A stretch of DNA of 64,000 nt from Petropleomorpha daqingensis (GCF_013408985.1 NZ_JACBZT010000001.1:3534001-3598000); one strand, 5' to 3'; positions 5,237 to 34,476 are shown, counted from the first letter of the stretch. Notes: generated by a model not told the origin, from the sequence alone. Translations and numbers: made by a program.

Positions 5237-7245
5237 CCGCTGCCACCGTTCCCGCCCAGGGCGTCGGGGAGCCGGTCGCCCAGCCGGGGCGGCCACGACC
5301 CGCAGGCACCTTCTCCTCAGCAGTCCGGGCGGCGCTGCGCCGGCCGGCCGTGCTCGTGGCGCTCGGCTGGGTCGTGCTGGTCGTCCTATCCAGTGCGCTG
5401 GCCGGGGTCCTCGCGCCGCACGACCCGCTGGCCCAAGACCTCGACCACACGCTGTCCGGCCCGACCGGCACCTACCTGCTGGGCACCGACGAACTGGGCC
5501 GGGACCTGCTGTCCCGGATCCTGCACGGGGGCGGCAGCCTGCTGCTCGCGGCGCTCATCCCGCTCGCCGTGTCCTACCTCCTCGGCGTGCCTGCCGGCCT
5601 GCTCGTCGGGTACGTCGGCGGCAAGGCCGACGCGGTCGCCGACTTCGTGGTCAACGTCCTGTTCGCCATCCCGGCCCTGGTCATCGTCCTCGCCGTGGCC
5701 GTCGTCTCGAACAACAACCTGCTGGTGATGACGGTGATCTTCGGGGTCATCATCAGCGGCGGGATCTTCCGGCTGGTGCGCGCCTCGACCCAGGCCTCCC
5801 GGGACCTCCTCTACGTCGACGCCGCCCGGGTCAGCGGCGTCGCGCGGTGGACGATCCTGCTGCGGCACATCCTGCCCAATGTCTTGGGGCCGCTGATCGT
5901 GCAGGGCTTCCTGCTCTACAGCGGCGCCTTCCTGTTCCTGACCTCGCTGTCGTTCCTCGGCCTCGGCTTCGACCCGCAGCAGCCCAGCTGGGGACAACTG
6001 GTCTTCGACGCCTCCGGCCACCTCGACACCGACCCCTGGATGATGGTCCCGATCGGCATCGTGCTCATCGCCACGGTCGCCGCACTGAACTACCTGGGCA
6101 ACTCCCTGCTGGCCACGCTCCCCACCGCTCGACGAGCCCGGCTGCTGACCCCGCTGCGCCGACCGCAGCTGCCACCGGAGGCCGCGGCCAGGGCTGCGGG
6201 GGAGAGGCGGCGCTCGTCGGCCGCGGACCCGGCCGACCACGACCTCCCGCTGGTCGTGGAGGACCTCGTCGTCTCCTTCCGCACGTCCGAGGGGGGTTGG
6301 CAGTCGGTCGTGGACGGCGTCTCGTTCGCCGTCCGTCAGGGGCAGACCCTGTGCCTGGTCGGCGAGTCCGGCTGCGGCAAGACGATGACGGCGATGGCGA
6401 CCCTGGGCCTGCTCCCCGAGGGCGGTGCCGCCGCCGGCTCCGTCCGCCTGGGCGGCCGCGAGCTGCTGACCCTCTCGGAGAAGGACATGGCGCAGGTCCG
6501 CGGCTCGCAGATCGCGCTGATCTCGCAGGAGCCCATGGTGGCCCTCGACCCGTGCTTCTCCGTGCGCTCCCAGCTGGGCGAGGTGGTCACGCTGCACCGG
6601 GGCGGATCACGCGTGGAGGTCCGCCAGAGGGTGCACGACCTGTTGCGGCTCGTCGGCATCCCGAACGCCGAAGCCGTGGCCAAGAGCTACCCGCACCAGC
6701 TCTCCGGCGGGATGGCACAGCGGGTGTGCATCGCCCTGGCACTCGCGGGGGAGCCCCGGGTGCTCATCGCCGACGAGCCCACCACGGCCCTGGACCCCAC
6801 GATCCAGGCCGAGATCCTCGACCTGCTGCGCTCGCTGCAGGAATCCCTCGGCCTGGCGCTCGTGCTGGTCACCCACGACCTCGGTGTGGTGGCCGACATC
6901 GGCGACGTCGCGGCGGTCATGTACGCCGGGCAGATCGTCGAGCTGGCCCCGGTGGACGAGCTGCTCGCCACCCCCCGGCACCCCTACTCCCGCGGTTTGC
7001 TCGACGCGATGCCCGAGGACGCCGTCCGCGGGGAGCAGCTGCCCACCATCCCCGGCGTCGTGCCGCTGCCCCAGGACTGGCCGGCGCACTGCCGGTTCGC
7101 CGCCCGCTGCCCGCTGGCCGCCGACGCCTGCCGGGAGGGCACGATCCCGCTGATCCGCGTCGGGGACGAGCGGTCCAGCCGGTGCATCCGCACCGACGAG
7201 CTCGACCCGATCCCCGGCCTCGCGAAGACGGGAGCCATCCGATGA
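5233..7245 (+). CDS. ABC importer permease-ATPase fusion (DppC-DppD)
   Basis: One 670-aa protein combines the second membrane half-channel with an ATP-binding subunit. Residues 1 to about 310 are a DppC-type permease: an N-terminal cytoplasmic leader, a first helix, the GTDELGRDLLSRILHG motif, then the coupling loop DAARVSGVARWTILLRHILP. After an Ala/Arg-rich linker comes a DppD-type ATPase with Walker A GESGCGKT, signature LSGGMAQR and Walker B VLIADEPT. It ends in the oligopeptide-transporter C-terminal zone with spaced cysteines (CRFAARCPLAADAC). ATG 5233 overlaps the dppB-type stop, and the ORF is open through the junction, so this is a true fusion rather than two genes. Such fusions are known in actinobacteria. 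Confidence 0.92.
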   Translation: MTAATVPAQGVGEPVAQPGRPRPAGTFSSAVRAALRRPAVLVALGWVVLVVLSSALAGVLAPHDPLAQDLDHTLSGPTGTYLLGTDELGRDLLSRILHGGGSLLLAALIPLAVSYLLGVPAGLLVGYVGGKADAVADFVVNVLFAIPALVIVLAVAVVSNNNLLVMTVIFGVIISGGIFRLVRASTQASRDLLYVDAARVSGVARWTILLRHILPNVLGPLIVQGFLLYSGAFLFLTSLSFLGLGFDPQQPSWGQLVFDASGHLDTDPWMMVPIGIVLIATVAALNYLGNSLLATLPTARRARLLTPLRRPQLPPEAAARAAGERRRSSAADPADHDLPLVVEDLVVSFRTSEGGWQSVVDGVSFAVRQGQTLCLVGESGCGKTMTAMATLGLLPEGGAAAGSVRLGGRELLTLSEKDMAQVRGSQIALISQEPMVALDPCFSVRSQLGEVVTLHRGGSRVEVRQRVHDLLRLVGIPNAEAVAKSYPHQLSGGMAQRVCIALALAGEPRVLIADEPTTALDPTIQAEILDLLRSLQESLGLALVLVTHDLGVVADIGDVAAVMYAGQIVELAPVDELLATPRHPYSRGLLDAMPEDAVRGEQLPTIPGVVPLPQDWPAHCRFAARCPLAADACREGTIPLIRVGDERSSRCIRTDELDPIPGLAKTGAIR

Positions 7246-29439: not shown

Positions 29440-29521
29440 GATCCACCTCCTCGGTTCCGATCGTGCGTGCGCGGCCACGCCCCGACCAGGGCCGGCGTCG
29501 GCCATCCCGGACCGGCAGTGC

Positions 29522-29567
29522 TTGCCGAGCACCGGCAAGGAGCGGGCCGGTTGCCGGGCGTCGGCAA
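29522..29567. promoter_or_regulatory. two tandem TTGCCG-N5-CGGCAA palindromes
   Basis: Site 1 is 29522-29538 (spacer AGCAC) and site 2 is 29551-29567 (spacer GGCGT). Both have perfect 6-bp arms and their centres are 29 bp apart. They lie in the 374-nt divergent gap between the small membrane protein (minus) and the DksA-like gene (plus). The same palindrome recurs at 31372 and 32572, next to the PucR-type regulator gene. Most likely operators of that regulator. Confidence 0.65.
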
Positions 29568-29758
29568 CGGAGAGGGCTCCCGGTTCACCGGCGGCCGCCC
29601 TGTTCGCGCCGCCGGTAGGACGGGATGGTCGGGTTCCGGCGTCGGGGACGCAGTCGCAGAGGGGGTGATCGGGATGACCAGCAGGGCGTCGCTGCACCGC
29701 AGTCAGGACCGGTCGCCCCCGGGAGTGCGCTGACCCCGTCGTCCCAGCTCACGTCCCC

Positions 29759-29789
29759 AGGCGCGTCCCACCGATCGGTGGGCGCGCCT
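29759..29789 (+). promoter_or_regulatory. hairpin in the leader of the DksA-like gene
   Basis: AGGCGCG-T-CCCACCGA pairs with TCGGTGGGCGCGCCT, a stem of about 15 bp with one bulged T. It ends 24 nt before the ATG. A 19-codon open frame (29674-29733) precedes it. It could be a terminator for transcription from the left or an attenuator controlling the gene. Confidence 0.45.
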
Positions 29790-29813
29790 TCTCGTTGTCC
29801 GAAGGAGAGCGCC

Positions 29814-30122
29814 ATGTCCGTCACCCTCAGCTCGCCGGCGTGGGAGTCGTTCCGGGTCCTGCTCGAGGAGCAGCGCGCCGACTGCCTCCGGCAGCGCGAG
29901 CTCGCCCTGGCCGAGGCGGCCACCTCGGTGCCCGATCCGGTCGCCCAGAGCCGCGCCGCCTCCCTGGCGCTGACGATCGACGAGATCGACGCGGCGCTGC
30001 ACCGGATCGCCGGGGGCACGTACGGGTCCTGCGTGCACTGCGGGGGCGCGATCCCCGTCGAGCGGCTGAAGTTCCGGCCGTTCGCAGCCGGCTGCGTGAC
30101 CTGCCAGTCCTCGGTGCGCTGA
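29814..30122 (+). CDS. DksA/TraR-type C4 zinc-finger protein
   Basis: 102-aa protein. The N-terminal 70 residues are a helical hairpin (LLEEQRADCLRQRELALAEAA ... LTIDEIDAALHRIAGG). The C-terminal four-cysteine finger reads CVHCGGAIP ... GCVTC. The sequence GTYGSCVHCGGAIPVERL matches the DksA/TraR C-terminal signature. It probably binds RNA polymerase through the secondary channel and alters promoter choice. AGGAG precedes the ATG. The next gene begins 1 nt after its stop. Confidence 0.82.
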   Translation: MSVTLSSPAWESFRVLLEEQRADCLRQRELALAEAATSVPDPVAQSRAASLALTIDEIDAALHRIAGGTYGSCVHCGGAIPVERLKFRPFAAGCVTCQSSVR

Positions 30123-30123
30123 C

Positions 30124-31356
30124 GTGGACGTCGCCGTGATCGGGGCCGGCATGGTCGGCCTGTCCACCGCCTGGTTCCTGCAGGAGGCCGGCGCCCAGGT
30201 CACCGTCTACGACCGCGACCGGGTCGCCGCCGGCGCCTCCTGGGGCAACGCCGGCTGGCTGACCCCCGCGCTGACCGCGCCCCTGCCCGAGCCGGCGGTG
30301 CTGCGCTACGGGCTGCGTGCGGTGCTCAGCCCGCGCTCGCCGGTGTACCTGCCGCCGAGTGGCGACCGCACCCTGGCCCGCTTCCTCGCCGGCTTCGTCC
30401 GGCACAGCACCGCCCGGGCGTGGCGGCGCGGCATGGCCGCCTTGGTGCCGCTCAACCAGCGCGCACTGGAGGCGTTCGACGTCCTGGCCGCCGGCGGGGT
30501 GATGGCCCCCACCCACCGGGCCGAACCGTTCCTCGCCTGCTTCGCCACCGCACGAGACGCCCAGCGGCTGTGCGCGGAGCTGGAGCAGATCCGCGACGCG
30601 GGGCAGAAGACCGGCTTCTCGCCGCTGCTCGGCTGGCGGGTACGGGCGATGGAGCCGGTGCTGACCGACCGGGTGGACGCCGCAGTGGAGATCCACGGGC
30701 AGCGCTACCTGCACCCGCCGGAGTTCGTTCCCAGCCTCGCCTTCGCGGTGCAGGCCCGTGGCGGAGTCGTCGTCCAGGGCGCCGACGTGGCGCACCTGCA
30801 GCACCGCACGGGCGGGATCACCGTCGTCACGGCGGCGGGTGAGCGGCTGCAGCACGACGCGGTCGTCGTGGCCACCGGCGCCGACCTCGGCCGGCTGGCG
30901 GCGCCCTTCGGGGTGCGGTTCCCGGTGCAGGCCGGCCGCGGTTACAGCTTCAGCGTGCCCGTGGAGCGGATGCCGCGCGGGCCGCTGTACTTCCCGACCC
31001 AGCGAGTGGCGCTCACGCCGCTGGGGGAGCGGCTGCGCGTGGCCGGGATGATGGAGTTCCGCCGTCCCGGCGACCCTCTGGACCCGCGCCGCGTGGCGGC
31101 GATCGTCGACGCCGTCCGCCCCTTCCTGACCGGGGTCGACCTCGACGAGCGGCGCAACGAGTGGGTCGGCTCGCGGCCCTGCACCCCCGACGGGCTGCCG
31201 CTGCTGGGGGCGACCGCGTCGCCGCGGGTGTTCGTCGCCGGCGGGCACGGCATGTGGGGCATCGCGCTGGGCCCGGTCACCGGCCAGCTGGTGTCCCAGG
31301 CCGTGCTCAAGGGGGAGACCCCGCCGGAGCTCGCGCCGTTCGACCCGTTGCGCTGA
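30124..31356 (+). CDS. FAD-dependent D-amino acid dehydrogenase-like oxidoreductase (DadA family)
   Basis: 410-aa DAO-superfamily flavoprotein. The N-terminal VAVIGAGMVGLSTAWFLQEAG binds FAD, followed by the DadA-typical ASWGNAGWLTP. The C-terminal signature is SRPCTPDGLPLLG ... VFVAGGHGMWGIALGPVTGQLV. It likely oxidises D-amino acids or related amines and passes electrons to the respiratory chain. GTG start 1 nt after the DksA-like stop, so it is co-transcribed with it. The regulator gene follows at once with an operator between. Confidence 0.82.
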   Translation: MDVAVIGAGMVGLSTAWFLQEAGAQVTVYDRDRVAAGASWGNAGWLTPALTAPLPEPAVLRYGLRAVLSPRSPVYLPPSGDRTLARFLAGFVRHSTARAWRRGMAALVPLNQRALEAFDVLAAGGVMAPTHRAEPFLACFATARDAQRLCAELEQIRDAGQKTGFSPLLGWRVRAMEPVLTDRVDAAVEIHGQRYLHPPEFVPSLAFAVQARGGVVVQGADVAHLQHRTGGITVVTAAGERLQHDAVVVATGADLGRLAAPFGVRFPVQAGRGYSFSVPVERMPRGPLYFPTQRVALTPLGERLRVAGMMEFRRPGDPLDPRRVAAIVDAVRPFLTGVDLDERRNEWVGSRPCTPDGLPLLGATASPRVFVAGGHGMWGIALGPVTGQLVSQAVLKGETPPELAPFDPLR

Positions 31357-31371
31357 CCCGGCACGATGTCC

Positions 31372-31388
31372 TTGCCGATCGTCGGCAA
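31372..31388. promoter_or_regulatory. TTGCCG-N5-CGGCAA palindrome upstream of the PucR-type gene
   Basis: Perfect 6-bp arms, spacer ATCGT. It ends 5 nt before the Shine-Dalgarno of the regulator gene, so a bound regulator would block its own expression. Because of it, the further-upstream ATG 31366 is unlikely to be the start. Confidence 0.65.
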
Positions 31389-31407
31389 AGGCCAGGAGGT
31401 GGAGCGC

Positions 31408-32562
31408 GTGGACGACTGGCTGGCCTCGGTCGGGGCGGCGGCGGCCGCCGACGTCACGGCGCCGGAGGAGCTGCTCGGGGAGTACCTGCCGCTGCTGGCC
31501 GACGCGGCCATCAACGGCCGCCGTCCCGACTCGTTCGAGCTCGACGCGGTGCGCGAGCTCGGCCGGCGCGCCGCCGCCGAAGGCGTCACCGCGCGCCGCG
31601 CGGTCGACCTCTACCTGTCCGCGGCGTGGCGGCTGTGGCGGCAGCTGCCGGTCGTGGAGCGCTCGTCCGATCCGGAGAAGGTCCGCCGGGCCGCCGAGGC
31701 GGTGCTCCGGGTGCTCGACGACGCCATCAGCGTGCTGGTCGCCGGCCACCAGGCGGAGCGCCGCGCGATGATCCGCCAGGAGGAGACGCTGCGGGTCGAG
31801 TTCGTCGACGACCTGCTGCGCGGGGACGCCGACGTCTCCCGGATGGTGGTGCGGGCCGAGCCGTTCGGCATCGATCTGGGCAAGCCGCACCAGGTCGCGC
31901 TGGTCGCCCCGCTCGACGAGGACGGCGCGGCCGACCGGGTGGCGATCGCGCTGGAGCGGGCGGTGGTCGAGCGGTTCGGCGACCGCGAGGTGCTGGTGGC
32001 GACCAAGGACGGGCGGGTGGTCGTCGTCGCCCCCGGCGGGTCCGTCGCACCCGAGGTGGGGACGGCGATCCAGCAGGACCTGCGCCGGCGAGAGCTCCCC
32101 GGCCGGTGGCGCGTGGCTGCCGGACGCGCGTTCCCCGGCGCCTACGGTGTGGCCCGCTCCTACGAGGAGGCCCTGGAGGCGCTGACCTTCGCCGACCGGC
32201 TGGGCCTGGACGCCGACGTGGTGCACGCCCGCGACCTGCTCGTCTACCGGGTGCTCGGCCGCGACCAGGCGGCCCTCGTCGACCTGGTCCGCGACGTGCT
32301 GACCCCGCTGGACCGGGTGCGCGGCGGTGCGGACGTGCTGCTGGAGACCCTCCGCGAGTACTTCGCCGCCGGCGAGGTCGCGACCGAGGCCGCCCGCCGG
32401 CTGCACGTGTCGGTCCGGACGGTCACCTACCGGCTGGCCCGGGTCGCGCAGCTGACCGGCCACAGCGTCGCGCAGCCCGACCAGCGGTTCGCGCTGCACG
32501 CGGCGGTGCTCGGTGCACGGCTGCTCGAGTGGCCCGGGAGGGCGCTGCCCGCCGAGCAGTGA
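31408..32562 (+). CDS. PucR/CdaR-type transcriptional regulator
   Basis: 384 aa from GTG 31408 (AGGAGG at 31394-31399). The N-terminal half is helical and has a sensor-like character; the middle carries a GGDEF-like CdaR region (VALVAPLDEDGAADR ... VVVVAPGG). The C-terminus holds the HTH_30 DNA-binding domain: LLETLREYFAAGEVATEAARRLHVSVRTVTYRLARV. PucR-type regulators respond to small metabolites and often control purine, proline or amino-acid catabolism. Its position after the DadA-like gene and between palindromes suggests it controls this group. Confidence 0.85.
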   Translation: MDDWLASVGAAAAADVTAPEELLGEYLPLLADAAINGRRPDSFELDAVRELGRRAAAEGVTARRAVDLYLSAAWRLWRQLPVVERSSDPEKVRRAAEAVLRVLDDAISVLVAGHQAERRAMIRQEETLRVEFVDDLLRGDADVSRMVVRAEPFGIDLGKPHQVALVAPLDEDGAADRVAIALERAVVERFGDREVLVATKDGRVVVVAPGGSVAPEVGTAIQQDLRRRELPGRWRVAAGRAFPGAYGVARSYEEALEALTFADRLGLDADVVHARDLLVYRVLGRDQAALVDLVRDVLTPLDRVRGGADVLLETLREYFAAGEVATEAARRLHVSVRTVTYRLARVAQLTGHSVAQPDQRFALHAAVLGARLLEWPGRALPAEQ

Positions 32563-32571
32563 GCGGCGGGC

Positions 32572-32588
32572 TTGCCGGTCGTCGGCAA
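32572..32588. promoter_or_regulatory. TTGCCG-N5-CGGCAA palindrome upstream of the small-gene pair
   Basis: Perfect 6-bp arms with spacer GTCGT, 10 nt after the regulator stop and 98 nt before the next start codon. A good position for an operator within the promoter of the 32686-33020 pair. Confidence 0.65.
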
Positions 32589-32685
32589 CCGGGGCGGGTT
32601 CGAGTCGTCCGGCCGCGGCCGTGGTCCGTCCCGATGTCCGAGGGCACGCTGGAGGCACCAGCACTCGAAGAGAACAGGAGAACGC

Positions 32686-32850
32686 GTGCCTCTCACCCTC
32701 GTCAGGCCGCCGGAGTCCGAACTCGCCCGGGTCGCGGTCCTGGAACGACGGGTCGTCCCCGACGCGCCCCGGCGGCGGACGGCCGACGACATCGTCGAGG
32801 AGTGGGGGCTGCAGTCCTTCCCGGCCAGCGACCCGCCGGCCAACTGGTGA
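32686..32850 (+). CDS. small conserved protein with FPASDPP motif
   Basis: 54-aa protein from GTG 32686, with AGGAG 6 nt upstream. It has a charged, disordered start, then a short helix (TADDIVEEWG) and a terminal SFPASDPPANW. This ending recurs in many small bacterial proteins of unknown role. The stop overlaps the next start (GTGA). One of the palindromic operators is upstream. Confidence 0.6.
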   Translation: MPLTLVRPPESELARVAVLERRVVPDAPRRRTADDIVEEWGLQSFPASDPPANW

Positions 32851-33868: not shown

Positions 33869-33978
33869 GCACCGATCAGACACCAGGCGCTCGTGAAGTG
33901 CCTGCTCAGCGGCCGTCCCGCTAGGTTTGGCCCACCGTGCGCAGAGCGGCGCACCCTCCCACGGCAGGAGATCACCCG

Positions 33979-34476
33979 GTGAACAAGACCGACCTGGTGT
34001 CGCGGTTGACCGACCGGTTCGACGGCGACCGCAAGGCGGCGATCGCCGCCGTCAACGGTGTGCTCGAGGAGATCCAGCAGGGCCTCGCGCGCGGGGAGCG
34101 GGTGATCCTCGCCGGGTTCGGCACCTTCGACCGGCGGGAGCGCGGGCCGCGCACGGGTCGCAACCCGGCCACCGGCGAGACCATCCAGATCGGCGCCACG
34201 GTGGCGCCGGTGTTCCGGGCCGGTGCGGGTCTCCGGCAGGTGGTCACCCAGGCGGCCGGGACGGCGGTGGGGACCGCGCGCACCGCCGTGGCGGAGGTGG
34301 CCTCGGTCGCCCAGGCCGTCCCAGCGGCGGTGGCGAGTGCCGTTGCCCCCTCCGACGGCAAGGCGGCGAAGCCGGCCAAGGCGGCCAAGCCGGCGAAGGC
34401 GTCGGCGAAGAAGGCCAAGGCCGACGCCGCCAAGGCCCCCAAGAAGGCGGCCGCGAAGAGCGGCAAGAAGAAGTAG
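33979..34476 (+). CDS. hup: HU-family DNA-binding protein with lysine-rich tail
   Basis: Nucleoid protein, 165 aa from GTG 33979, preceded by CAGGAG. Residues 1-90 are the HU fold: VNKTDLVSRLTDRF, then GFGTFDRRERGPRTGRNPAT with the DNA-binding arm. The C-terminal part contains repeated KPAKAAK/KAKADAAK units, like the histone H1-like tails of actinobacterial HupB/HupS. The tail is preceded by an Ala/Val-rich linker (about residues 90-120). Binds and compacts DNA. Confidence 0.9.
   Translation: MNKTDLVSRLTDRFDGDRKAAIAAVNGVLEEIQQGLARGERVILAGFGTFDRRERGPRTGRNPATGETIQIGATVAPVFRAGAGLRQVVTQAAGTAVGTARTAVAEVASVAQAVPAAVASAVAPSDGKAAKPAKAAKPAKASAKKAKADAAKAPKKAAAKSGKKK

Follow-up and report, generated by a model that had tools for sequence, protein, structure and literature searches.

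A conserved palindrome, TTGCCG-N5-CGGCAA, as the predicted operator of a PucR/CdaR-type regulator beside genes for a DksA-like factor and small proteins in Petropleomorpha daqingensis

Introduction

Regulators of the PucR type often serve amino-acid and nitrogen metabolism, and few of them have known operators (PMC7652997). GabR of Corynebacterium glutamicum, a local activator, uses two inverted repeats that lie between -87 and -23 relative to the start of its target and are both needed for strong binding (PMC7652997). PutR and AdeR of Bacillus subtilis are likewise PucR-type activators with inverted-repeat operators, of 17 base pairs (bp) and 24 bp respectively, and act on amino-acid catabolism, with no DksA-like target named in the text consulted (PMC7652997). 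MabR (Rv2242) of Mycobacterium tuberculosis (PDB 9f80), which forms dimers and tetramers, controls the fas-II operon through an AT-rich operator (probe GTTTTGTTGGTTATATACAAAAA; PMC11617747). On the side of the target genes, OsdR, of the DevR/OsdR dormancy regulons, is predicted to control the DksA/TraR zinc-finger gene SCO6164 (PMC5069765). Here we analyse a stretch of 64,000 nucleotides (nt) of the Petropleomorpha daqingensis genome (GCF_013408985.1 NZ_JACBZT010000001.1:3534001-3598000), called the window throughout, in which four copies of the palindrome TTGCCG-N5-CGGCAA accompany a PucR/CdaR-type regulator, a DksA-like protein, a DadA-like oxidoreductase dependent on flavin adenine dinucleotide (FAD) and three tiny proteins. 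We propose, with a probability of roughly 0.7, that the palindrome is the operator of the regulator encoded at 31408-32562, which would activate three target promoters and repress its own gene.

The locus resembles the GabR system in that a regulator of the PucR family is encoded beside its putative targets, and the span covered by the GabR repeats is close to the one that we infer for the palindrome and a second promoter element (about -85 to -33); unlike the regulator described here, GabR has no GGDEF-like domain, and it recognises a 21-bp repeat and serves the use of gamma-aminobutyric acid through one target operon (PMC7652997). MabR shares both the GGDEF-like domain and the C-terminal PucR-type helix-turn-helix (HTH) (PMC11617747), and is the closest solved relative by sequence, with a match of low identity over the C-terminal part only; its recognition helix reads HPNTVRYRL, compared with SVRTVTYRL here. 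The predicted OsdR targets include universal stress proteins, which are also found near this regulon in some relatives, but DevR/OsdR is a response regulator of a two-component system, and its palindrome, AGGGCCGATCGGCCCT, is a different one (PMC5069765). In the open-access literature we found no earlier description of the present operator or of the FPASDPP peptide, which is not proof of novelty, nor of a PucR regulon in Geodermatophilaceae. To our knowledge, the DksA-like proteins of actinobacteria are poorly understood.

Results

The original prediction, read from the sequence of the window, had described four copies of the palindrome with perfect 6-bp arms and a 5-nt spacer, and no fifth; a pattern count returned exactly these (Table 1). 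By chance 0.01 copies would be expected in the window, and four were not reached in any of 100 shuffles. Across the genome (5,376,835 bases) the only perfect copies are the four in the window, compared with one copy of a reversed control pattern, so the palindrome does not occur at a random genome-wide frequency; with four copies given, a simple estimate puts the probability of finding them all in a single 3,067-base stretch at about 7e-10. One-mismatch copies in the rest of the genome do not exceed background (19, compared with 48 for the control), and the genome thus holds no hidden set of weaker sites. The placement of the four perfect copies relative to the genes also stands as described: the Shine-Dalgarno sequence of the PucR-type gene closely follows one, the FPASDPP/membrane-protein pair comes after another, and the remaining two occupy the region that separates the minus-strand small membrane-protein gene from the divergent DksA-like/DadA-like pair. 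The flanking promoter elements divide these last two, assigning the copy at 29522 to the minus-strand gene and that at 29551 to the DksA-DadA pair. From the end of the former to the GTG start of the membrane-protein gene there are 82 nt, and in most relatives 82-88 nt.

Table 1. Genes and predicted regulatory elements of the locus (positions counted from the first base of the window).
Feature	Coordinates	Strand	Basis or remark
Small membrane protein, 86 amino acids	29179..29439	-	Resembles small membrane proteins behind the site in relatives
-10-like CACGAT, membrane-protein promoter	29460..29465	-	Promoter layout
Second element GGCCGA-N6-CCCTGG, membrane-protein promoter	29486..29503	-	Promoter layout
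Palindrome, putative upstream site of small membrane-protein gene	29522..29538	-	Pattern count; promoter layout 18-6-20
Palindrome, putative upstream site of dksA-dadA promoter	29551..29567	+	Pattern count, promoter layout
Second element CACCGG-N6-CCCTGT, dksA-dadA promoter	29586..29603	+	Layout and genome pattern search
-10-like GATGGT, dksA-dadA promoter	29624..29629	+	Layout and genome pattern search
DksA/TraR-like C4 zinc-finger protein, 102 amino acids	29814..30122	+	Pfam zf-dskA_traR 36.0 bits, over cut-off
DadA-like FAD-dependent oxidoreductase, 410 amino acids	30124..31356	+	Pfam DAO 205 bits
-10-like CACGAT of regulator gene, 4 nt before palindrome	31362..31367	+	Orthologue comparison
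Palindrome at the regulator's own promoter	31372..31388	+	Predicted span about -2 to +15
PucR/CdaR-type regulator, 384 amino acids	31408..32562	+	GTG start after AGGAGG; GGDEF_2 and HTH_30, helix SVRTVTYRL
Palindrome, putative upstream site of FPASDPP promoter	32572..32588	+	Pattern count, promoter layout
Second element GTCCGG-N6-CCGTGG, FPASDPP promoter	32607..32624	+	Layout and genome pattern search
-10-like CACGCT, FPASDPP promoter	32645..32650	+	Layout and genome pattern search
Small protein, 54 amino acids, C-terminus WGLQSFPASDPPANW (FPASDPPANW)	32686..32850	+	Family conserved behind the palindrome in relatives
Small membrane protein, 57 amino acids	32847..33020	+	Start overlaps FPASDPP stop codon (read from sequence)

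Conservation was followed in a family sample of 112 genomes, in which an orthologue was defined by at least 69% identity and 29 genomes, that of the window included, qualified. At least one perfect site is present in 26 of these 29 (49 sites in all) and in 10 of the 67 genomes that have neither orthologue nor paralogue (13 sites in all), a co-occurrence with a Fisher p of 3e-12, not corrected for relatedness. The 488 kilobases (kb) surrounding the family orthologues contain the exact site 33 times, compared with 0.08 times on average for the half-site's other permutations, and none of the other spacers from 0 to 12 occurs in the same sequence. Conservation of the 17-mer next to orthologous regulators holds throughout the family: of the 30 orthologue loci from other genomes, second copies included, 22 have it, with no more than one mismatch, in the 200 nt preceding the regulator. 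In most loci a site is also found in front of DksA (with or without DadA), FPASDPP or a small membrane protein of family c2; CBS-domain and other small proteins follow a site in some genomes. Perfect sites distant from the regulator in regulator-bearing genomes adjoin DksA, FPASDPP or membrane-protein members at seven loci (L076-L081, L084), two of which, L079 and L084, additionally contain regulator fragments. The 'local regulon' of the original prediction describes this genome; in relatives, part of the target set lies apart from the regulator gene. Some genomes have a second regulator gene that is partial or broken, as seen in L063 (genome G059), L065 (G111) and L084 (G093), each with a site in the region.

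Since it is a perfect inverted repeat, and since two copies lie just past stop codons (those of dadA and of the regulator gene), the palindrome could instead be an RNA hairpin, acting as terminator or attenuator, or a dispersed intergenic repeat. However, among 92 strand-sites just one is followed by at least four T within 8 bases, and changes such as CTGCCG are usually uncompensated on the other arm; the spacer is always 5, and the distances to downstream genes are conserved. We consider such an origin very improbable: a hairpin or terminator was rejected on the near-absence of T-runs and the conserved promoter geometry, and a dispersed repeat on the lack of further perfect copies in the genome.

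Beyond the close orthologues, paralogues (43-48% identity) have a site of the type TTGCCGG-N3-CCGGCAA a few bases past their own stop codon, perfect in 6 of 10 loci and with one mismatch in two more. In three paralogue loci (L067-L069) the site was seen about 1,190 bases after the paralogue start, upstream of a STAS-type gene. Loci from other families of the order yielded 11 perfect sites, in 9 of 20 loci, and a search of the class, covering 29 loci of which a few come from the same order and family, yielded 7 in 117 kb and none for the control. In most of the remaining class loci a copy with a single mismatch is present, frequently some 100 bases ahead of the regulator gene; lone mismatched copies of this kind weigh less. 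Two loci from other orders (L175, L176) have, near the regulator, a perfect site in front of a DksA-like gene. Site counts in 14 further genomes from the class and order range from 0 to 2, similar to those of the control pattern, so the link there rests on position and not on number. The pairing of regulator and site reaches other orders of the class in a weaker form: across the examined loci of other families and orders, most relatives of the regulator have the site, perfect or with one mismatch, close to their gene. When the regulator was searched against a contig collection, the only match was a partial one in Amycolatopsis, without the site.

At the target genes the palindrome is followed by a fixed layout, consisting of about 18 nt, the motif NNCCGR, 6 nt, the motif CCSTGK, about 20 nt and a -10-like SANNST. 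It was found after 47 of 217 strand-sites (at most one mismatch), where a random rate of 0.0087 predicts about 2, with patterns that were chosen after looking at the sequences, and in 44 of its 54 matches within 80 nt the second element (NNCCGR-N6-CCSTGK) stands at exactly one offset. The window promoters that have it are those of DksA, of FPASDPP and of the minus-strand membrane protein. Its strict form, combined with the -10 pattern, has four exact matches in the genome, two of them at window promoters (DksA and FPASDPP); that of the membrane protein is missed because its -10 falls just outside the pattern. With so few matches, a general promoter of the genome was rejected as an explanation of the second element, and so was a DevR/OsdR box, for which spacing and sequence were judged by eye to misfit. 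The 16-bp palindrome AGGGCCGATCGGCCCT was likewise matched, by eye and with no genome-wide motif search, by neither the palindrome nor the second element.

The target promoters have a weak -10-like hexamer and no clear -35. At the regulator gene the order differs, most orthologues having CAnnCT, about four bases, the palindrome and then the Shine-Dalgarno sequence. The paralogue loci L067-L069 show a similar spacing with a better -10, TAGCGT, six bases after which an ATG opens a STAS-type open reading frame; this gene is apparently leaderless, and its ATG anchors the extrapolated start site at the target promoters. On that scale the palindrome would extend from about -85 to -69 (centre near -77) and the second element from about -50 to -33 (near -41.5), an arrangement that suggests activation. 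At the regulator gene the palindrome lies just after the -10-like hexamer CAnnnT, over the predicted start, which suggests autorepression. It could also be that the regulator mainly represses all of its targets through the palindrome until a ligand releases or inactivates it, as the site at its own promoter is positioned for repression and MabR was originally described as a repressor (PMC11617747). We regard this as unlikely, since the target sites are centred about 77 bp upstream of the predicted start and far from the core promoter, the target promoters combine a weak -10 with the lack of a clear -35, and activation is the mode of GabR and of most PucR-type regulators characterised so far (PMC7652997).

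The assignment of the regulator to the PucR type, made in the original prediction, stands with a refinement. The Pfam domains HTH_30 (the C-terminal PucR helix-turn-helix; 65.9 bits, cut-off 27) and GGDEF_2 (GGDEF-like; 70.3 bits, cut-off 24.5) are over their cut-offs and present in all 16 relatives, but the N-terminal PucR domain (PF07905) had no match in 16 members at E up to 1, a combination that indicates a regulator of the MabR/CdaR type. The same domain search gave a weak RsbRD_N match in one relative (E 0.064). Eight proteins of the genome exceed the HTH_30 cut-off, and SVRTVTYRL occurs in the regulator of the window only, the helices of the other seven being mostly of the H-x-N/Q-T type; no palindrome was found within the 1.5-kb flanks read around those seven genes. 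The SVR helix is common to all 16 aligned relatives, a 45% paralogue included. With regard to the N-terminal non-heme globin-like sensor domain of MabR-like regulators, a single-sequence structure model of the regulator has an all-helical N-terminal part with a predicted local distance difference test score (pLDDT) of about 70 and is poor elsewhere (mean pLDDT 48.4), and fold searches with this poor model gave no specific match.

The set of linked genes named in the original prediction was right. The 86-residue membrane protein is 37-42% identical, over part of its length, to the membrane proteins that adjoin the site in relatives. The DksA-like protein scored 47 bits against NCBIfam DksA equivalogs with cut-offs of 105 and 115.5, and so is not assigned to DksA proper; it retains the zinc-finger cysteines and a PDPV stretch as in Escherichia coli DksA. 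The second aspartate of the Escherichia coli DksA tip appears to be absent from it, in a region where the alignment is weak. Similarly, the DadA-like protein reached 194 bits against NCBIfam PRK00711, the D-amino acid dehydrogenase subfamily, below its cut-off of 383, and its best solved relatives are glycine oxidases. The overlap between the FPASDPP stop codon and the start of the 57-residue membrane protein suggests that the two are probably translated together. Further downstream, positions 33937-34476 of the window encode an HU-type DNA-binding protein whose long tail is rich in alanine and lysine.

Discussion

The most probable arrangement is, in our opinion, one in which a dimer of the regulator, probably within a tetramer or higher oligomer as is reported of MabR and GabR, binds the palindrome through the recognition helix SVRTVTYRL, which departs from the H-x-N-T type usual in the family. 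At the three targets, namely the small membrane protein, DksA-DadA and FPASDPP-membrane protein, the bound regulator would most likely recruit RNA polymerase from its position upstream of the predicted start, and at its own gene, where the palindrome covers the predicted start, binding would shut transcription off. The candidate inducer may be an amino acid, a related nitrogen compound, or a starvation or stress cue. An amino-acid or nitrogen signal would suit the DadA-like enzyme and the habit of PucR-type regulators (PMC7652997), while a starvation or dormancy cue would suit the DksA-like protein and the stress-protein neighbours found in relatives. Universal stress, CBS-domain and STAS-domain proteins were observed near sites in several relatives (L036-L062, L076-L084), a neighbourhood that recalls dormancy regulons.

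Several points weigh against this reading. Eight of the 30 orthologue loci have no site, even with one mismatch, shortly upstream of the regulator (among them L054-L056, L061, L062 and L064), and a site is also missing from several of the paralogue and class-level loci. Two perfect sites in regulator-bearing genomes (L082, L083) have no recognised target. Among nine loci from regulator-less genomes (L085-L093) a family member stands beside the site only in L089, of genome G088, where the perfect site precedes a 35% membrane-protein-family match by 84 nt and the PucR-type proteins are only distant ones. In that locus (5672-6017) the site and the membrane-protein-like gene adjoin a universal stress protein gene. 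As to the promoters, the -10 and start assignments come from a sequence pattern and from extrapolation from a different promoter set, and the second element may belong to the core promoter or be bound by another protein. The loci without an upstream site, and the target-like gene of G088 in a genome with no close orthologue, would fit a different arrangement, in which the palindrome is recognised by another protein encoded elsewhere and the PucR-type gene is just one of its targets. This we hold to be improbable, because the number of sites tracks the presence of the regulator over the 112 genomes and because paralogues bear a site just past their own gene in most loci examined.

With recognition by the regulator itself as the preferred reading, a wider proposal can be made, which is tentative and which we would put at somewhat less than even odds: that a class-wide actinobacterial subfamily of PucR/CdaR-type regulators, with an altered recognition helix and the conserved operator TTGCCG-N5-CGGCAA, controls a DksA-like factor and small stress-type proteins via a two-site promoter of rigid layout, with the second element near -41.5 replacing the -35 box. 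If this is true, a ligand-sensing regulator would be linked to the modulation of RNA polymerase, and would not be a simple switch for amino-acid catabolism. The analysis yields a precise predicted operator, accompanied by a recognition-helix signature, together with a gene set and a promoter layout common to many genomes, so that direct tests would become possible of how the DksA-like protein and several tiny unannotated proteins are controlled and what they do.

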